Shown piece by piece: positions 47,931 to 57,105 of a DNA stretch of 64,000 nt. Made by a program: the position numbers and the translations under genes. The notes beneath the pieces are model-generated. The model ran no database searches, was not told where the DNA came from, and saw only the letters and a list, made by a program, of their open reading frames with translations. How positions within the stretch are numbered: position 1 is the first letter of the stretch; each line of letters opens with the position of its first letter. The stretch comes from an uncultured SAR86 cluster bacterium (GTDB lineage: Bacteria; Pseudomonadota; Gammaproteobacteria; Magnimaribacterales; D2472): contig CACKPV010000001.1 in NCBI GenBank assembly GCA_902602185.1, forward strand, positions 110,785 to 174,784, in the 5' to 3' direction.

Positions 47931-48659
47931 ATGAAGATAATTATAAAGGGGATTGTAATCAAAGGGGAAATGAGGAAAAGTTATTTCAAAAATATCTATA
48001 TTGTTATTTTGTTATGTCTAGCTGGTTGTTCTCAGCAAACTCCTGAGCAACTTTGTGAAACTGAGCTCAATGCTTCCACTAATCTATTTCAGGTAAATGA
48101 TTTTGAAGAGAATAAATTCTTCTCTATGATTGAAAGTGATCTACCCAAATTTCAGGAATATTTCAAAGAGGCAGCTCAATTATCAGATGTTGATTGGAGA
48201 ATGATAGCTGCTATTGGTTTCCAAGAATCACAATGGAATCCTGAGGCAGTGTCAGCAATGGGTGTCCAAGGAATTATGATGTTAACCGAAGATACTGCTA
48301 AAGATTTCAATGTTACTGATCGTCAAGATCCAAAACAAAATATTCTTGCTGGCAGTCTTCATTTTTCAAATATAAATGAGCAGATCAGTAATTTAGGCAT
48401 AATAGATGAAAGATTTTATTTTACACTTACTGCCTACAATATTGGTTTTTCAAACTTTCGAAGAGCTTGGAAAAAATATGAGAGTCAACAATCTCCTGAA
48501 TGGAAATCTTTTAAAAAACCTCTCAGTGAGCTATCTGGAAAAGAAGTGTATTTTGTTGATCTCAATAATTATCCAAGAGGGAAGCAAGCAATTGATTTCA
48601 CAGAAAAAGTCTCTGATTATTACTTGCTTCTTAGGGCTTACACTTGTTTACAAAACTAA
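47931..48659 (+). CDS. MltF-like lytic transglycosylase lipoprotein without its SBP domain
   Basis: 242 residues; an internal ATG at 47970 with AGGGG in front is an alternative start. A lipobox (LAGC) lies near residue 33. The C-terminal part matches the SLT domain of Mlt[21 protein letters not shown] with the catalytic Glu, then [13 protein letters not shown] and [12 protein letters not shown]. The periplasmic substrate-binding-like N-terminal domain of MltF (about 250 residues) is missing. Its position next to purL is the same as in E. coli. It trims peptidoglycan at the outer membrane. Confidence 0.88.
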
Positions 48660-50662
48660 ATTGCCAATAGCTTATATTTAAGCTCTTTAATTTTATCGCG
48701 ACAAAAAGCAGCTTTCTCAAACTCGGTTTTATTTGCATAACTGAACATTTGTTTTTCTAATTTTTCTATCGATTTTGAAATTCCCTCGGGTGAAAGTTCA
48801 TCAATTTTAAATTTAAGATCTTTTGTGAAGTCTTGCTTCTTATTTTTTGCTGCCCTAGTATTTGGACGAGCACCTTCCATAATATCTTTGACCTCTTTTC
48901 GAATACTTTTTGGTGTGATTTTATTGTCCTGATTAAATTGCACTTGGATATCTCTTCTACGGGAGGTTTCATCTAATGCACTTTGCATTGAATTTGTAAT
49001 GTGATCTGCATACAAGATTGCTTTACCACGAATGTTTCGGGCAGCTCTACCAATGGTTTGAATTAGGGTAGTTTCTGATCTTAAGAAGCCTTCTTTATCA
49101 GCATCTAAAATTGCAACTAAGCTGACTTCAGGAATATCTAAACCTTCTCGGAGTAAATTAATACCAACTAGTACATCAAACTTACCCAGACGCAGATCTC
49201 TGATAATCTCTACTCTTTCAACAGTATCAATGTCAGAATGCATGTAGCGTGTTTTTATATCATTTTCATTAAGATAATCAGTTAAATCCTCTGCCATACG
49301 TTTTGTAAGGGTAGTTATCAATACTCTTTCTTTTAATTTTGCCCTTTCATTGCACTCTCCTATAACATCATCGATTTGCGTGCCAGCCGGGCGAATCTCT
49401 GTCTCTGGATCAATCAATCCTGTTGGGCGAACAAGAAGTTCAACCAAATTATCATTTTTTTCATCTTCATATCTGCTGGGAGTGGCTGAAACATAAACTC
49501 TCTGAGGTGCAATTGATTCCCACTCCTCAAACATTAGTGGGCGATTATCAACAGCTGAAGGTAAACGAAAACCATATTCTACAAGGGTTTCCTTCCTCGA
49601 ACGGTCTCCTTTATACATTGCACCGATTTGTGGAATTGTTACATGCGATTCATCGATAAATACAATGGCATTTTTAGGAACAAAATCGAAGAGACATGGG
49701 GGTGGTTCTCCTGATTGTCTTCCCGATAAATATCTTGAATAATTCTCGATGCCTTGACAATAACCCAGTTCACGCATCATTTCTAAATCATACTGGGTTC
49801 TTTCTTTGAGTCGCTGCGCTTCAACCAGTTTTTGATTGGCATGTAAAAATTCAATTCTCTCTTTTAATTCCTCCTCAATTAATGGTAAACATGCATTAAT
49901 TTTTTCTCGTGGGGTTACATAATGGGTTTTAGGGAATATCGTTGCACGGGGTGTTTTATTTAACATTTCTCCTGTTAATGAATCAATCCAAATAAGATCT
50001 TCAATTTCATCTCCAAACATTTGAATTCGTAAACCCTCTCTTTCAGAATCAGCTGGGAATATATCAATAGTGTCCCCCCTCACCCTAAAAGTACCTCTTC
50101 GAAAATCTAAATCATTGCGGGTATATTGCATAGTTGAGAGTTTCTTGAGTAAAGTAGGTTGACTCACTTCATCTCCTCGATCCAAATGCATCACCATTTC
50201 CAAATAGCTTTCAGGCGCACCCAATCCATATATAGAAGAAACGGTTGCAATGACAATTGAATCCTTTCTTTCAATAAGTGCTTTGGTAGCAGATAAGCGC
50301 ATTTGCTCAATATGCTCATTAATAGATGCATCTTTTGCTATATAGGTATCGGATGCCGGAACATAGGCTTCTGGTTGGTAATAATCATAATACGAAACAA
50401 AATACTCGACCGAATTTTTAGGAAAAAAATCTCTAAACTCACCATATAATTGAGCTGCAAGAGTTTTATTATGAGCCATGACAATTGCTGGACGTTGCGT
50501 TTCTTCGATAACTTTTGCCATAGTGTAAGTTTTACCAGAGCCGGTAACTCCTAATAGTGTTTGATGCAGTAACCCATCATTAAGGCCAGAAACTAGCTTA
50601 TTGATAGCCTCTGGTTGTGACCCTGCTGGTTCAAAACTGCTTATAACTTTTAAATCTTTCAC
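48656..50662 (-). CDS. uvrB: Excinuclease ABC subunit B
   Basis: 668 residues; the damage-verifying helicase-like subunit of nucleotide excision repair. Walker A is [15 protein letters not shown], the beta-hairpin region has [11 protein letters not shown], the DEAD-like box is [13 protein letters not shown], motif [14 protein letters not shown], and a C-terminal UVR coiled coil ([17 protein letters not shown]) binds UvrC. The upstream 48 bases hold no recognisable LexA box (CTGT-N8-ACAG), unlike umuD. The 3' end overlaps the mltF-like gene by 4 bases. Confidence 0.97.
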
Positions 50663-50670
50663 TAATAAAT

Positions 50671-50699
50671 TTACTTAATTAAAAAAAATTAATTATAAT
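50671..50699 (+). promoter_or_regulatory. Putative promoter of tRNA-Asn
   Basis: TATAAT at 50694-50699 lies 11 bases before the mature tRNA 5' end. A weak -35, TTACTT at 50671-50676, is 17 bases upstream. The -10 is a perfect match. Transcription would start within a few bases of the tRNA. Confidence 0.5.
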
Positions 50700-50710
50700 G
50701 CTTTTCACGC

Positions 50711-50785
50711 TCCCCTGTAGCTCAGCGGTAGAGCAGTTGACTGTTAATCAATTGGTCGTGTGTTCGATCCACACCGGGGGAGCCA
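50711..50785 (+). tRNA. tRNA-Asn(GTT)
   Basis: 75 bases with encoded CCA. Acceptor TCCCCTG pairs with CGGGGGA (one G-T pair); D arm with AGCTCAGCGGTAGAGC; anticodon loop CTGTTAA gives GTT; T arm TTCGATC. A protein gene starts 17 bases downstream with no terminator between, so it may be read from the same transcript. Confidence 0.96.
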
Positions 50786-50802
50786 TAATATATAATTATT
50801 TT

Positions 50803-51309
50803 ATGAAAAGAATATTATTTGCATTTACTTTTATTATATCAATGAGTGCTTTCTCAGAAATTTCAAACACCAGTTCTAATTGGTATGTTGTAACCGACCA
50901 AGTCATGGGAGGTAAATCAGAACTTCAAGCAGATTTTGATAATGGTGTTTTTAGTTTGAATGGATATGTCACTACAGTTAATAATGGAGGTTTTGTAAGA
51001 CTTTCTCATCGACCTCAAAATTTAACAAATAAAATTCAAGGTATTCGTTTTGTTGCAAAAGGTAATAATGAAAAATATGAGGTTCATGTCACAATGCAAG
51101 GTTTAAGAATGCCTCCTTGGGCATACCATAGTTCTATATTTGAAGTCACAAAGGATTGGCAAACATTTGAAATTAATTTTTCTGATTTCGAAAAAAAATC
51201 AGGTATGTCACCAAAACTCAACCCAAGTAGCATCAGAGACATCAGTTTTGCTGGCTATGGAAGAAACTTTGATGTCGATCTAATGATTACAGAGGTTAGT
51301 TTTTTTTGA
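50803..51309 (+). CDS. CIA30-domain secreted protein
   Basis: 168 residues from the ATG at 50803; a longer frame would run through the tRNA and is rejected. A signal peptide ends near AFS (about residue 17). The body has the CIA30 (complex I intermediate-associated protein 30) jelly-roll pattern: WYVVTDQVMGGKSE, FSLNGYVTTVNNGGFVRLSH, IQGIRFVAKGN and KLNPSSIRDISFAGYG. The bacterial role is unsettled. It lies 17 bases after tRNA-Asn and converges on the accessory operon with a 12-base gap. Confidence 0.88.
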   Translation: MKRILFAFTFIISMSAFSEISNTSSNWYVVTDQVMGGKSELQADFDNGVFSLNGYVTTVNNGGFVRLSHRPQNLTNKIQGIRFVAKGNNEKYEVHVTMQGLRMPPWAYHSSIFEVTKDWQTFEINFSDFEKKSGMSPKLNPSSIRDISFAGYGRNFDVDLMITEVSFF

Positions 51310-51321
51310 CCAAAAAATTAC

Positions 51322-51687
51322 TCACTCACCTAAAGACCAAGATTTTTTTAATATTGAAATAATCTTTTCTTCTTCGGGTCTCTTGATGCCATCTGCCCAT
51401 AAGACTTTTTTGCAAAATTCTAAAATTTTTACTTGTAACTCCTTACTTTCTATAAAATTTGCATACTTTTTAGCTGTCTCACTTAAACCCCTGTTCTCAT
51501 ACACATTCCTATTAACTTCATCAACCAATTCATGAAAATCTTCTTCACCCAAACTTAAGTCAATATTTTGTGAAATGGCATCATAAATTAAATTATATTC
51601 AGTCTCATGAGGTTCCAAATCAGCTACCATAACTAAAATTGCCAGTTTGAAAAAATATTTATCATTTGGAGAAAAATTTAGATTCAT
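51322..51687 (-). CDS. TerB-like small helical protein (accessory operon, last gene)
   Basis: 121 residues, all helical. Two similar halves recall TerB: LAILVMVADLEPHETEYNLI near the start and KVLWADGIKRPEEEKIISILKKSW near the end, the second with the TerB ADG...EE...I pattern. TerB-type domains occur in tellurite-resistance and phage-response neighbourhoods and may bind metal at acidic positions. The ATG overlaps the ParB-like gene stop by 4 bases, so it belongs to the operon. Fold assignment is a pattern match. Confidence 0.6.
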   Translation of the reverse strand: MNLNFSPNDKYFFKLAILVMVADLEPHETEYNLIYDAISQNIDLSLGEEDFHELVDEVNRNVYENRGLSETAKKYANFIESKELQVKILEFCKKVLWADGIKRPEEEKIISILKKSWSLGE

Positions 51688-52862
51688 TTTTTGATATTTT
51701 TTTTCTTTGGAAAACTCATTGTGGCATTACTGAGGTGTCTGGCATGAATTGAAATAGATTTTAAATCATGACCCAAATTTTCATATGTCCTAATTGACTT
51801 TCTTATTTTTTTAATTGTATTTTTATGCATCAACCAATCCGCAAACTCTTTAACTCTCTTGTATTCAGCATCTCCAACACCGCCCTCAAGAGCTCTTCTT
51901 ACTGCCTCAGCAAGGTCAATCTTTTCTTCCATTAAATCTAATACAAGCTCGATGTCATTGTGTGTCTCAAATGCTCTTCCGATCAAACGTAGATTATCTG
52001 TATATGATACCAACTTTGCTGATGAACCGTCTGCTGCTGCTGCTTCGATTTGCTTCTCCTCTTTAACCTGTTTTATCATCATATGATCAAATGCATTTGG
52101 AGCAGCATTTTCGATTTTTCCTTTGAGAAATGAATATGAATTGAATACTTTTCGAAGCATGTTTATTTCTTTGTTACCAGCTACAATTCTTTGCCAGTAT
52201 GCATAATATTTCTTTTGGACAAGGGAACTCATTTTATACTGTTGCATGAAATCAACAGTTTTGACTGCCCTACTAACTCTTAATTGGGGTAGATTGAAAA
52301 AATTAGCAACCATCTTAGTTGCTTCCGTTTTTGAAGCATTTTTGTTTTTCATAATATCCATTGTTTCTCTGAATAAATAATTTACTTCCTCAAATGCTGC
52401 CCATTTATTTTTACCTTTCAATTGGGTCTGTCCAATAAAATTCTTCATTACTCTCTCGTCAGTACCGTCAGGGAGAACATTCACTTCAATCTCAGACCAT
52501 TTTTTTGAATCCTTACCCTTTCTATGAAGGGCCATCGCTACTGCTAGTCGCGTATTACCTTCGTACACAACATAATTTTGAGTATTTATATCCAAAGCTA
52601 CCCAAACTGCTTCATTTATTTGTCCATCTGATTCAATATCTTTCCTCAATTTTTGAAGATCTTTAGTTAAAGAAAGTTTTTCAAAAATTTCTGCACGGGA
52701 TATAGTTCCGGTATCCCTTTCATCTTCCAACAATGAATAAATTCTTGGGTTATCTTCCCAAAAATGAAGATCTGCTATCTTTGCGTAACCATTAATAACA
52801 GTATATTGTTTTCCTTGAATAGTTTTTGGTCTTGCTTGGCTACCTCTTATTTTTAGTTTCAT
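51684..52862 (-). CDS. ParB/Srx-fold protein 1 (accessory operon)
   Basis: 392 residues. Box I reads DNPR (residues 37-40) and box II EGNTR (101-105), where chromosomal ParB has GERRxR. A middle region with NFIGQTQLKGKNKWAAFEEV is mirrored in the second ParB-like protein (AHFVGKKEWTPYSKG). Behind it lies a helical, possibly DNA-binding, part (KTEATKMVANFFNLPQLRVSRAV). No ParA is near, so it is probably not a segregation factor. The fold binds NTPs or acts as a nuclease in other families; the activity here is unknown. It follows the SNF2 gene by 12 bases. Confidence 0.75.
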   Translation of the reverse strand: MKLKIRGSQARPKTIQGKQYTVINGYAKIADLHFWEDNPRIYSLLEDERDTGTISRAEIFEKLSLTKDLQKLRKDIESDGQINEAVWVALDINTQNYVVYEGNTRLAVAMALHRKGKDSKKWSEIEVNVLPDGTDERVMKNFIGQTQLKGKNKWAAFEEVNYLFRETMDIMKNKNASKTEATKMVANFFNLPQLRVSRAVKTVDFMQQYKMSSLVQKKYYAYWQRIVAGNKEINMLRKVFNSYSFLKGKIENAAPNAFDHMMIKQVKEEKQIEAAAADGSSAKLVSYTDNLRLIGRAFETHNDIELVLDLMEEKIDLAEAVRRALEGGVGDAEYKRVKEFADWLMHKNTIKKIRKSIRTYENLGHDLKSISIHARHLSNATMSFPKKKNIKK

Positions 52863-52874
52863 TTTAAAATCCTC

Positions 52875-54338
52875 TCATGTACTCAAAACCTCTGCAAGTA
52901 ACTCAGCAAAATCAAAACTCATTTCTTTTTCATATTCATCTTTTGTTATATCTCCTTGAGCATATCTAGCAGCAATTTCTTTTGCAGCAAGTAATGCATC
53001 GACCCATTCATCAATGGAATTCTTAGCAATTATCTTATAAATGTAACATTCTTTCTTTTGAGAAATTCTATAAATCCTGTCTTGAGCTTGAAGATAGTTT
53101 TCTAGACTGAAATTTCTATCAAAAAAAATTGAATAGTTTGCCTCCACAAGAGTTAAGCCCTCTCTTGCTACTCCTGGAGTTGTAATCAAAATATCAATGC
53201 TGTTGTTCGTTCTAAAATTTGAGATAAGTTTGTCCCTATGCTTAACATCTATACCGCCGTGAATCCCAACACATCCTTTTAAATCAAATTGTTTGCAAAG
53301 CCATTCAACGTTATCGATAAAATTAGTCCATATAATAATTTTCGATTCCTCAGAGCGAGCTTTATCAACAATTTTTTTTAATGGTTCTAACTTACAGGCT
53401 TTACCAGCATAACTCTCATCTACAAGGTAAGGGTTTGAAGCAATTTGAACTAAACGCAATAATCTTTTCAAAATTACTTCAACATCTTCCTCAACTAACT
53501 TACCTTCTTTGATCACTGATGCATACAATTCTTTTTGTAATTTTGAATACAAAACCTGTTGTTTTTTCTCTAAGTCTACATATTCAACAACAAATTTTTT
53601 TCCGGGTAATTCGATTCCAGCAGTTTTTTTTGTCTCCCTAACAGAACAATCTGAAATAATTTCTCTTAAAGCATTTAGTGCATTTTTAAAAATAATTTGA
53701 CCGCTGTAACTTTTACTTAAATTATTATCGAGATCATATTCATCTTTAAAATCACCAAAATTTTTTCCAAGTCTTTGGCCAAAATCTAAAAAATAAATTT
53801 GTGACCAAACATCATATGGTCTATTAGAAATAGGTGTACCAGTCATAATAATTCTTTTTTTTGCATCCGGTGCGATAGCATGGAATGCTTTTGCAGTTTG
53901 AGATTTAGGATTTTTTATTTGAGTTGATTCATCAAGAATGATTCCTGCATTTCTAAAATTAAAAAAACTTTTAAAAGCTTCCAAATTGTTTCTGACGGAC
54001 TCGAAATTTGTTAAATAAATAAAGCCAGGTGCAAACATTTTTTCTAGTGATTCAGCTTTGTCAGATCCTAAAACTATTGGTTGTAAATTACCATGAATAA
54101 TAAATTCATCTTGCCAATTTTTAATTAAACTTTTTTTAGTAACTATTAAAACAGAATCAACCTGCTCATCTCCCAACCAAAAATAAGTTAAATCAATTGC
54201 AATTTTAGTTTTACCTAAACCCTGCTCATGAAATATTGCAAAGTACTCATTATTTTTTATCTGATCAAAAGCTTCCTGCTGAAATGGGTATGCATTTTTT
54301 TTTAAATTAAGAATTGGTGATTTCCGTAAAAATTTCAT
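52875..54338 (-). CDS. Compact SNF2-family helicase/translocase (accessory operon)
   Basis: 487 residues, superfamily 2. Motif Q/I region HEQGLGKTKIA (GLGKT 40-44), DEST as motif II at 136-139, TGTPISN as motif III at 166-172, and the second lobe IITTPGVAREGLTLVEAN and QAQDRIYRISQKK (motif VI). The short insert and lack of extra domains resemble phage and defence SNF2 proteins rather than RapA. It would move along duplex DNA using ATP. It sits between the nuclease-like gene (gap 9) and ParB-like 1 (gap 12). Confidence 0.9.
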   Translation of the reverse strand: MKFLRKSPILNLKKNAYPFQQEAFDQIKNNEYFAIFHEQGLGKTKIAIDLTYFWLGDEQVDSVLIVTKKSLIKNWQDEFIIHGNLQPIVLGSDKAESLEKMFAPGFIYLTNFESVRNNLEAFKSFFNFRNAGIILDESTQIKNPKSQTAKAFHAIAPDAKKRIIMTGTPISNRPYDVWSQIYFLDFGQRLGKNFGDFKDEYDLDNNLSKSYSGQIIFKNALNALREIISDCSVRETKKTAGIELPGKKFVVEYVDLEKKQQVLYSKLQKELYASVIKEGKLVEEDVEVILKRLLRLVQIASNPYLVDESYAGKACKLEPLKKIVDKARSEESKIIIWTNFIDNVEWLCKQFDLKGCVGIHGGIDVKHRDKLISNFRTNNSIDILITTPGVAREGLTLVEANYSIFFDRNFSLENYLQAQDRIYRISQKKECYIYKIIAKNSIDEWVDALLAAKEIAARYAQGDITKDEYEKEMSFDFAELLAEVLST

Positions 54339-54347
54339 AGATTCTGA

Positions 54348-54845
54348 TTACTCGGTTAAACCTAACTCACTGATAACTTCAAAATTCACCAAATTTGCTT
54401 GAGTCCTCTTTTTTGATTTTGTTAACAGCATTCGTGCTTCATTAAGGAGAAATTCTGGTAAGGCATACAAAATTAATGTCTCATAATCATCTCTTTCAGC
54501 TTTTTTTTGTAAGTGAAAAAAATAAACATCCATTTGCTCAAACTTTCTTTTTTTATCTGTATTCCAATCACTTGCTGTTTTGCCTTCTCCAATTAAATAA
54601 AAATTTTTTTTGTTCCCATAAAATTTTGCTGAAGTATCTCTTGCAATCAAATCAGGTATTACAGGATGATCACAGATATCAGACTCTTTTATTTTAAGGG
54701 TAGAACTAAATTTGCTTTGATCCTGAATGCTTTTATCTTTTCTAATGCTTAGTGAAGGTCTATCTGGCAAGATAAATTTTTCTACCCATTCATTAAGACA
54801 ATCAACATAGGCAAGGTGAGTACCTTCAAGATTATGAGATGACAT
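54348..54845 (-). CDS. Putative PD-(D/E)XK nuclease (accessory operon)
   Basis: 165 residues. The motif set of the PD-(D/E)XK fold is visible: PD at 64-65 in VIPDLIARD, then ExK at 87-89 in FYLIGEGKTASDW, then a helix with a conserved-type Gln104 (KRKFEQMDVYF). The spacing PD-22-ExK-Q fits restriction-endonuclease-like folds. No extra DNA-binding domain is apparent, so it probably works with the helicase and ParB-like proteins. The call is by motif only; a non-cleaving relative is possible. Confidence 0.6.
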   Translation of the reverse strand: MSSHNLEGTHLAYVDCLNEWVEKFILPDRPSLSIRKDKSIQDQSKFSSTLKIKESDICDHPVIPDLIARDTSAKFYGNKKNFYLIGEGKTASDWNTDKKRKFEQMDVYFFHLQKKAERDDYETLILYALPEFLLNEARMLLTKSKKRTQANLVNFEVISELGLTE

Positions 54846-54855
54846 ATTAAAATAA

Positions 54856-55878
54856 CTAATCCTCTTTCGAGTCTAAGAAAATTCCTAATTCAATACTCAA
54901 ATAATCTAATGCAGAAAGATCTTTTTCTGAAAGATTTTTTTTATGTTTGTTTATTGTTGAAAGTCTATCTCCTAATTCCTCGGCAAGATCTGCCAATGTT
55001 GAATTGTTCAATGGAGTTTTATTACTTGTTGATAAATATTGTGCAGCAACTTCTGCAACACTTTCTTTTCCTTTTAAAAATGCTTCCTTTGCATCTTTAT
55101 TACTCAGAATATCTGGTATCTTTCTTACATCACGGATCTGACCAATCTTTTCATCTCTAACCCACTTTGAAAAAATATCTCTTGCTTTCTTTTCAGATCC
55201 AGCATGATCCTCTAGTGCAGCTCTAATTGATGATCTGGAACAGTACTCAGCAAATTGTGTAAATCTTTTTTTTGGAGGATTAATACCATCTTTTTCAGGA
55301 GAGAAAAGTGGAACAAAATGCTCTTGAAACATATGAAATGCCTCTAAATTAGCTGTAATCTTAGAATCACTCCCACCAACAATTTTTTTTATGTCTTCAA
55401 CTTGCCTTCCTGCATGTAACAATTTATGAATAAATAAGCCTTTTGAGTAGGGAGTCCATTCCTTTTTGCCTACAAAGTGTGCTTGCAGTCTTAAGTTATC
55501 TATCAAGCTTTTATCCATATTTTCATAAACTAGTGCTGGTATTGAATCCCAGTTATTCTCTTGAGAAATATTTGCATCATCAGAAAACTTTCGATAAATT
55601 GCCAATCTAGTATTCCCTTCTATACAGACATATCTATCAATGTTTTTTATTAAGATTATTGGTTCAATTATCGTTCCAGCAGCTCGTATAGATTTTTGAA
55701 GCTCTTCAGCATCAGGACCATACTCTTCAGAGCCATGAGGTTGAAGAAGAATACTTTCCAACCATGCTTGTTGTTCAGAATCTGAATCATAAGCTTTGTT
55801 AGCACCATCAAAATGGCCAATTCGGGGGTTATCCTTATCCAAGTCAATTTTAGTAATTGGAATATGCTCAAATTTCAT
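54856..55878 (-). CDS. ParB/Srx-fold protein 2 (accessory operon)
   Basis: 340 residues. Box I is DNPR (16-19) and box II EGNTRL (87-92). The N-terminal KFEHIPITKIDLDKDNPRI is the classical ParB opening. The middle part contains GKKEW.P.S.G like its operon partner. The C-terminal half is long and helical (SGSEKKARDIF..., then TLADLAEELGDRLSTI) and shows no known partner-binding motif. Ribosome site GGAG precedes the ATG. It is the first full-sized gene of the operon. Confidence 0.75.
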   Translation of the reverse strand: MKFEHIPITKIDLDKDNPRIGHFDGANKAYDSDSEQQAWLESILLQPHGSEEYGPDAEELQKSIRAAGTIIEPIILIKNIDRYVCIEGNTRLAIYRKFSDDANISQENNWDSIPALVYENMDKSLIDNLRLQAHFVGKKEWTPYSKGLFIHKLLHAGRQVEDIKKIVGGSDSKITANLEAFHMFQEHFVPLFSPEKDGINPPKKRFTQFAEYCSRSSIRAALEDHAGSEKKARDIFSKWVRDEKIGQIRDVRKIPDILSNKDAKEAFLKGKESVAEVAAQYLSTSNKTPLNNSTLADLAEELGDRLSTINKHKKNLSEKDLSALDYLSIELGIFLDSKED

Positions 55879-55954
55879 ATAATTTCTCCAAGAAATATTT
55901 TTTTTCTTTTAGATTATCTATTTTTATCTTCATCTCCTCAAGAAGTTTATCCAT
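55868..55954 (-). CDS. Possible 28-residue leader ORF ahead of the accessory operon
   Basis: A short frame from the ATG at 55954 encodes a Lys/Glu/Leu-rich helix (it starts MDKLLEEMKIKI) and ends 11 bases inside the ParB-like gene. It carries the ParB-like ribosome site GGAG within its own codons, so its translation could influence that of the operon. It could be chance; no upstream ribosome site was confirmed. Confidence 0.3.
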   Translation of the reverse strand: MDKLLEEMKIKIDNLKEKKYFLEKLYEI

Positions 55955-56001
55955 GAGTTACAAAAAAAGAAAAGTCTACATATTTTTGATAACATAATTT
56001 T

Positions 56002-57105
56002 ATGAAAATTTCTAAAGACAACCTTTTAAAAAAGGTCTCGTCTAAAGACAATCAGTTAATTAAAAGTTTGGACATCCTAATAGAAGATATCAATGCTAAT
56101 ACAAGCATTAATTTTTTTGGAAGACTTGCCTTTTGGCATCAATTAATCAACCGTATGAAGGTAAGAGATCGAATAGAAACAATCTACAAAAAAAATAATT
56201 TCTCGAACGTTGCTGATCCTATTTTTATCACTGGATTGCCAAGATCTGGAACAACGTTTTTATTTGACTTATTAAATATAAACGTTGATCTGAGAGGTCC
56301 TTTATATTGGGAAATCACAAGACCAACACCATTAATAAATTCCAGTAGTAAAAAAGCTTATATAAGATCATTTTTTACTGATGTGGAACTAAACTTAGCC
56401 AGATTGATTGTTCCAAATCTTGATGCAATGCATAAAATAAGGGCAAACTCTCCAGAAGAGTGTGAACAACTTAATACAATTACGGCAAAAAGTGTTGTGT
56501 ACCTTTACATGGCAAAGCTTCCTAATTATTTTCAATATCTAATGCAAACAGATTTTACAAATGTCTTTGAATGGCATAAGAAGTTTTTTCAGATTCTCGA
56601 ATTGTCAAATCGTCCCAAAAAATGGTTGTTAAAAGATCCATCGCACATTGAGCACATTCCAGAAATTCTCAAGGTGTATCCTAATGCAAAATTTATACAT
56701 CTGTTTCGTGATCCCTTGAAATCAATTGCATCCACATGCAGCTTAACCTCGAAAATTCAAAAGGGTCTCTCAAAATCTATAAATAATGAAGGTATTGGGA
56801 AAGACATAATAACATTTTGGGGAAATGCAATTGCCAAAAATAAAATTGGGAGGACCCTGCTAAGGGCTGATCAAAATCTAGACATTGAATACTCAGAGTT
56901 CATCGCAGATCCAATCGAAACCATTAAAAACATTTATGATTTTCTTAAATTACCACTAAATTCAGATGAACTCGAAAAGAAACAAAACTTCCTCAAAGTT
57001 CATGTAAAAAATAAATATGGAAAACATTCTTATCAATTAGAAGACTATGGACTTACTGATAATCTTGTCAATGAAAAAATTTCTTTAAATTGGCAAATTC
57101 AATAG
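56002..57105 (+). CDS. Sulfotransferase family protein
   Basis: 367 residues. The PAPS 5'-phosphosulfate loop reads FITGLPRSGTTFLFDLL, and the 3'-phosphate motif is FIHLFRDPLKSIAS further on; KWLLKDPSH is the middle motif. The family transfers sulfate from PAPS to hydroxyl or amine groups of small molecules or glycans. The acceptor is unknown. It is divergent from the accessory operon by about 50 bases and lies 15 bases before ppiB. Confidence 0.88.
   Translation: MKISKDNLLKKVSSKDNQLIKSLDILIEDINANTSINFFGRLAFWHQLINRMKVRDRIETIYKKNNFSNVADPIFITGLPRSGTTFLFDLLNINVDLRGPLYWEITRPTPLINSSSKKAYIRSFFTDVELNLARLIVPNLDAMHKIRANSPEECEQLNTITAKSVVYLYMAKLPNYFQYLMQTDFTNVFEWHKKFFQILELSNRPKKWLLKDPSHIEHIPEILKVYPNAKFIHLFRDPLKSIASTCSLTSKIQKGLSKSINNEGIGKDIITFWGNAIAKNKIGRTLLRADQNLDIEYSEFIADPIETIKNIYDFLKLPLNSDELEKKQNFLKVHVKNKYGKHSYQLEDYGLTDNLVNEKISLNWQIQ

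Follow-up and report, generated by a model that had tools for sequence, protein, structure and literature searches.

A conserved ParB-nuclease-SNF2 core and its SAR86 form: a candidate undescribed DNA-targeting defence system

Introduction

Whether two ParB-type proteins, a minimal SNF2 motor, a small nuclease and a TerB-like protein constitute one system, and what such a system would do, is the question raised by a five-gene cassette in a 64,000-nucleotide stretch of DNA (hereafter the window) from an uncultured SAR86 cluster bacterium (assembly GCA_902602185.1, contig CACKPV010000001.1, positions 110,785 to 174,784 of the forward strand). An initial annotation of the sequence had described these genes as one operon and as a candidate undescribed DNA-targeting system. 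Comparison with other genomes, plasmids and viral contigs showed that the first four genes form a rigid core, which is probably a restriction-type defence module that targets DNA and spreads horizontally, whilst the fifth gene is a feature of SAR86.

Results

Five intact open reading frames (ORFs), all on the minus strand, were present within positions 51322-55878 of the window, and are transcribed in the order ParB1, NUC (i.e. the nuclease), SNF2, ParB2 and TerB (i.e. P0001 to P0005). Intergenic gaps of 10, 9 and 12 bases are followed by a 4-base ATGA overlap between the TerB start and the ParB2 stop, confirming the tight operon of the initial annotation. A genome search with the SNF2 alignment produced 245 confirmed stretches; the best 80 of these were read and combined with plasmid loci, viral loci and the window into a set of 95 loci. 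ParB1 was present in 93 of these loci, the nuclease in 94 and ParB2 in 91. All four genes occurred in the same order in 88 loci, and contig ends truncate most of the others. Of the 263 core intergenic gaps, 243 were of 30 bases or fewer. The loci originated from at least 15 phyla, whose relationships are not mirrored in the SNF2 tree. Searches that did not depend on SNF2 converged on the same arrangement. A plasmid search with ParB1 alone retrieved rhizobial and Roseomonas plasmids with the order ParB1-nuclease-SNF2-ParB2, the ParB1 and ParB2 searches had seven plasmid records and seven viral contigs in common, and one viral contig retrieved via ParB2 (i.e. L198) also carries the core set.

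The window locus has these four genes in this order and on one strand, as expected of a family member. A chance grouping of the five genes is excluded because the set is conserved in distant genomes. The expectation that a genuine system would recur across unrelated genomes, near defence genes and with variation between strains was borne out for ParB1, NUC, SNF2 and ParB2, so that the proposed five-gene system stands as a four-gene core with TerB outside the conserved set. Homologues did not prove to be single and unlinked, nor did the set match a known phage or plasmid module, which would have been the contrary outcome; the phage SNF2 proteins were distant and ParB-less. Identical SNF2 proteins were encountered under different phylum labels in two pairs (i.e. 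L041/L042 and L021/L090), which suggests either a degree of misbinning or transfer in the very recent past.

The protein assignments of the initial annotation were each upheld. ParB1 (54856..55878, minus strand, 340 amino acids; DNPR and EGNTR) gave a weak match to Pfam ParB_N with an E-value of 5e-4, under the Pfam cut-off, and ParB2 (51684..52862, minus strand, 392 amino acids; NPR at 38-40 and EGNTRLA at 101-107) gave no Pfam match. Both proteins nevertheless contain the two motifs, and thereby the box I (NPR) and GxxR signature of a ParB-type N-domain; NPR and EGN.RLA were invariant in the homologues of ParB2 (71-74 sequences). An AlphaFold2 model of ParB2, with a predicted local distance difference test (pLDDT) score of 90.6, matched structures of ParB and Noc bound to cytidine triphosphate (CTP) with a Foldseek probability of 1.00 and an E-value of 1.4e-4, whilst its sequence profile found no solved-structure relative. 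ParB1 is homologous to ParB2 (hhalign E 1.8e-38 over 237 columns; BLASTP 1e-7) and, as judged from these alignments, the two are paralogues. Orphan proteins of the ParB fold, binding CTP, ATP or GTP, are common across mobile elements, and sequence is not a reliable predictor of their nucleotide specificity (PMC12704722). The PADLOC names PDC-M38A and PD-Lambda-5_A were rejected as identities, being weak matches to the ParB domain alone. On plasmid pTiAF3.44 (L010:5593-9239), a ParB1-like gene and a DEAD-type helicase gene directly adjoin dndABCDE, an arrangement that is a separate link between ParB1-like proteins and DNA phosphorothioation.

NUC (54348..54845, minus strand, 165 amino acids) likewise had no Pfam match and its sequence profile no solved-structure relative. 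The catalytic set (i.e. P64-D65, E87-x-K89 and Q104) was conserved in 76 homologues, with D65, E87 and Q104 invariant and P64 and K89 retained in at least 90%. The AlphaFold2 model (pLDDT 87) has the alpha-beta-beta-beta-alpha-beta order expected of the PD-(D/E)xK fold, with the conserved D and the E-x-K motif on a core of the alpha-beta type; the best fold matches were the XisH, FokI and McrC family nucleases, all weak with E-values of 0.02 or worse. SNF2 (52875..54338, minus strand, 487 amino acids; HEQGLGKT and QAQDRIYRISQ) is a minimal SWI2/SNF2 ATPase with Pfam matches to SNF2-rel_dom (111 bits) and Helicase_C (63 bits). Its identity to the 80 genome loci was 42-66%, the motifs EQGLGK and QxxDRxxRxxQ were found in 88 and 89 of 89 sequences, respectively, and the nearest solved structure by sequence was the Snf2/Rad54-family helicase 1z63.

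The conserved system is usually larger than the window cassette, with a radical-SAM gene, usually an HSP90-like ATPase and often a DndB-family gene. A radical-SAM gene adjoined the core in 86 of the 95 loci, a figure that may be high because the SNF2 seeds came mainly from radical-SAM-bearing loci and the 165 weaker loci stood outside the count. Placement varied: 54 of these genes lay downstream and 14 upstream on the strand of the core, with a further 14 downstream and four upstream on the opposite strand; CxxxCxxC was present in all 84 proteins of ordinary length. HSP90-like (GHKL) ATPase genes were found in 64 loci and DndB-family genes, identified as DndB/DpdB, in 32. Contig ends cut seven of the nine loci without a radical-SAM gene, leaving the window and the locus of SAR86 genome AG-333-J13 (i.e. 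L012) as the genuine cases.

Two further arrangements were observed around the radical-SAM genes. On plasmid loci L006 (16935-18866), L005, L007 and L008, the radical-SAM cassette is adjoined by a gene with a PIN_8 domain and by another GHKL ATPase gene, and this GHKL and PIN combination may be a module of its own. Six loci from Firmicutes, Spirochaetes and Bacteroidetes (i.e. L028, L060, L080, L081, L089 and L097) have a divergent upstream radical-SAM gene, and encode an uncharacterised protein of ~224 amino acids downstream of ParB2.

At the two SAR86 loci, and only there, the usual radical-SAM/HSP90-like cassette is replaced by TerB. The window TerB (51322..51687, minus strand, 121 amino acids) scored 25 bits against Pfam TerB, slightly above the cut-off of 24.4. 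In AG-333-J13, a TerB domain with 29% identity to that of the window is fused to the C-terminus of ParB2, and a gene for a Dam/DpnM-like adenine methyltransferase follows the fusion after 3 bases. TerB probably acts as a regulator or sensor bound to ParB2. The two SAR86 proteins form one clade in the SNF2 tree (support of 99). As the branch outside this pair (L008, L099) has radical-SAM genes, loss of radical-SAM in SAR86 is the simplest reading; the root of the tree is uncertain because the phage outgroups have long branches.

A cognate methyltransferase gene was absent from the window operon and present in the sister locus L012 only. Elsewhere in the window genome, a solitary D12-class adenine methyltransferase gene (G000 C1:220123-221013; L177:6121-7014) lies among housekeeping genes ~55 kb from the module, and was absent in the nine same-genus relatives searched. 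This enzyme belongs to another subfamily than the Dam/DpnM-like enzyme of AG-333-J13 and is not claimed as a missing partner. Two tandem C5 DNA methyltransferase genes were also noted in this genome (G000 C2:223097-225327; L186, L187).

The cassette occupies a hotspot for cassettes in SAR86, i.e. the uvrB-sulfotransferase interval, equivalent to 51310-56001 of the window. Eight of nine same-genus relatives have an insert-free site with the layout uvrB, CIA30, a phosphatase-like gene, a gene for 143 to 159 amino acids and the sulfotransferase gene. The ninth (L167, G006) carries a C5-methyltransferase and GHKL ATPase cassette at the hotspot. Other members of the family have two C5 methyltransferases with other genes (L174, G020) or one C5 methyltransferase with a 653-amino-acid protein (L175, G013) at the hotspot, and AG-333-J13 has its ParB module at the same hotspot position as the window. 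The sulfotransferase border gene was found in 29 of 41 genomes searched, and uvrB is within a few kilobases of it in most same-genus relatives. ParB1 was detected in two of 203 genomes of the SAR86 order, i.e. the window genome and one with a match at the L012 coordinates, whilst ParB2 was absent, at an E-value of 1e-20, from 397 other Pseudomonadota genomes. In other lineages the core had PD-T7-1, DrmB, type IV restriction, AbiEii, IetA, integrase and resolvase genes as neighbours, each in few loci, and the viral-contig copies were near tail, endolysin and integrase genes. Rarity, a cross-phylum distribution and a site at which cassettes are swapped together form the pattern of defence genes.

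The left border of the insertion in the window is a CIA30-like ORF (50698..51309, plus strand), which is kept in relatives with an empty site and whose longest version contains a tRNA-Asn gene (50711-50785) in the 5' part; uvrB lies beyond it (48656-50662, minus strand). The right border is a sulfotransferase-family gene (56002..57105, plus strand) followed by PPIase, lpxH, umuD and umuC. Only the five genes were found between the cassette flanks, in agreement with the previously reported absence of ParA, a methyltransferase, an integrase and a toxin-antitoxin pair. The operon end had been given as 55954, which required correction: ParB1 begins at 55878, and 55954 is where a 28-codon ORF starts in a different frame. 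This ORF (55868..55954, minus strand; MDKLLEEMKIKIDNLKEKKYFLEKLYEI) is of uncertain status; its end overlaps the ParB1 start and, from its sequence, it is a possible leader peptide.

Discussion

The gene content, conservation and distribution of the core argue that it is probably a restriction-type defence module that targets DNA and moves horizontally. Several points weigh against this reading. The defence role is drawn from gene content and distribution, and the figures for flanking defence genes are raw counts. The fold-library match of NUC is weak, and the radical-SAM association was derived from the biased seeds and the best 80 of 245 loci described above. A radical-SAM homologue was not found in the window genome (82% complete; search without a positive control), and a self-protection gene was absent from the window locus.

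In the mechanism proposed for this defence module, the paralogous ParB1 and ParB2 would act as a nucleotide-gated DNA-binding pair, loading on invading DNA at a sequence or a mark. The loaded pair would then recruit the SNF2 motor, which would move on duplex DNA and deliver the nuclease. The initial annotation also had the ParB pair load the helicase and nuclease; such loading, after recognition of DNA or of a mark, would fit this predicted anatomy. A separable partner would distinguish self from non-self; in most loci this would be the radical-SAM cassette, acting in a DNA modification or in its control, and in AG-333-J13 the Dam-like methyltransferase. As the window has no such partner at the locus, discrimination there may depend on a trans-acting factor or on a feature of the invader (i.e. 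a foreign modification or an unusual DNA state), or the system may be secondarily reduced.

Alternatively, the window cassette could be a reduced or decaying restriction core that has lost its radical-SAM/HSP90-like half, the one for self-recognition, being either inactive or tolerated as non-cutting. The frequency of radical-SAM genes among the loci and their presence in the branch outside the SAR86 pair make this absence most simply a loss, and the window genome yielded no homologue. All five ORFs are intact, however, with catalytic residues kept, and the gain of TerB goes beyond mere gene loss. The SAR86 form has also persisted, since AG-333-J13 shares it, likewise at the hotspot, with an SNF2 identity of 66%; decay was considered unlikely. 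Also unlikely is a type IV-like restriction system, in which the ParB pair would read a foreign DNA modification, SAR86 would need no self-modification and the radical-SAM enzyme would have a different role elsewhere. The lack of a modification gene at the window locus would suit such a system, as would the existence of ParB/Srx-fold sensors of modified DNA (i.e. DndI and SspE), but a Dam-like methyltransferase gene adjoins the SAR86 sister copy, and the 32 loci with a DndB-family partner are suggestive of a link with a modification system.

A further alternative is that the loci encode a machine for DNA modification or repair and not for defence, with the radical-SAM, HSP90-like and ParB proteins writing or maintaining a mark and SNF2 and the nuclease remodelling or processing DNA. 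Radical-SAM enzymes often make unusual modifications, and DndB-family partners belong to modification systems. This explanation was judged very unlikely, given that SAR86 has kept the nuclease without the presumed writer half and that sporadic spread and a cassette-swapping hotspot fit conflict genes better. Capture by the chromosome of a phage or plasmid module for replication or partition appears highly improbable. Partition systems typically use the ParB fold, the core has copies on plasmids and viral contigs, and phages carry related SNF2 helicases, some adjoining a small VRR-NUC. The operon lacks ParA, though, and the phage SNF2 proteins are ~30% identical or less; in the loci read they had neither ParB nor radical-SAM genes beside them. 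P0003 alone gave no match among viral contigs, the SAR86 SNF2 pair retrieved distant phage SNF2s only, and the distant SNF2 genes of four viral contigs had no ParB neighbours. Similarly, ParB1 had no match among 50,697 phage records and the tested VRR-NUC could not be aligned with NUC.

A fuller version of the defence reading is offered tentatively. In a broadly distributed and undescribed defence system, a ParB-type nucleotide-gated clamp pair would steer an SNF2 motor and a nuclease, whilst a radical-SAM enzyme and an HSP90-like ATPase would make or guard an unknown DNA modification; SAR86 would have placed the cutter under a different self-recognition partner (i.e. TerB, with or without a Dam-like methyltransferase). 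If the defence reading is correct, ParB-type switches known from the partitioning of chromosomes now serve a mobile immune nuclease as its recognition half, and the tie between a radical-SAM enzyme and a DNA restriction core in many phyla would point to an unknown DNA modification. Because some natural loci have the radical-SAM half and others lack it, the split between cutting and self-recognition can be tested directly.

Comparison with known systems

The designation of the locus as an undescribed candidate was sustained, as no matching system was found in PADLOC (2023), NCBIfam, Pfam or the searched literature, a search outside which lay preprints, most subscription papers and supplements. 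DISARM, Zorya (ZorD) and BREX (BrxH-type) share with the window locus an SNF2-family translocase that adjoins a nuclease or is fused to one, but the SNF2 protein here is minimal (487 amino acids) and the nuclease is separate. P0003 gave PADLOC helicase-domain cross-matches to DrmA and DrmD, with no DrmB or DrmC of the DISARM core (i.e. DrmA, DrmB and DrmC). The PADLOC ZorD profile matched with 166 bits, limited to the helicase region of SNF2, and no ZorA or ZorB was present in the operon. Neither PglZ nor BrxC of BREX was matched among the five proteins.

Dnd and Ssp (i.e. DndBCDE-DndI and SspABCD-SspE) likewise link a ParB/Srx-fold NTPase to a nuclease, and in DndI the ParB-like N-domain acts as a phosphorothioate sensor with control over a nuclease (PMC11662687). 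Their modification half is separable from the restriction half, as proposed here, and a third of the present loci have a DndB-family partner. The present nuclease is, however, of PD-(D/E)xK and not HNH type, and the core has a ParB paralogue pair, an SNF2 motor and radical-SAM and HSP90-like partners. DndC, DndD, DndE and cysteine desulfurase genes were absent beside the core, as was the DndC/SspD sulfurtransferase with DndD/E or SspB/C from the window locus, the homologous plasmid loci having the DndB-family gene only. The 7-deazaguanine system Dpd is similar in the DpdB-like (DndB) partner of 32 loci and in the resemblance of DpdE to SNF2 (PADLOC helicase matches). SNF2, the nuclease and the ParB pair nevertheless differ from the Dpd set. 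DpdB is absent from the window, and DpdA was found neither among the five window proteins nor at the loci read. The COG1743-DUF499-SNF2-nuclease(-EVE) operon also combines SNF2, PD-(D/E)xK and a modification half, but has a fused helicase-nuclease, with a methyltransferase and a CDC6-like ATPase in place of the ParB pair and radical-SAM (PMC7641849).

The CTP-gated clamps of ParABS and Noc resemble the predicted model of ParB2, which keeps the GxxR motif, whereas the present operon has two distinct paralogues together with a motor and a nuclease, and has no ParA as would be expected of ParABS partition. Early-gene pairs of SNF2 and VRR-NUC in phages also have a small nuclease adjoining a minimal SNF2 helicase; their SNF2 proteins are ~28-30% identical and no ParB genes are present. 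A link of NUC to phage VRR-NUC was not supported by the one phage sequence used, which failed to align. The core is undescribed in the sources searched, yet is of the known helicase-nuclease restriction kind.

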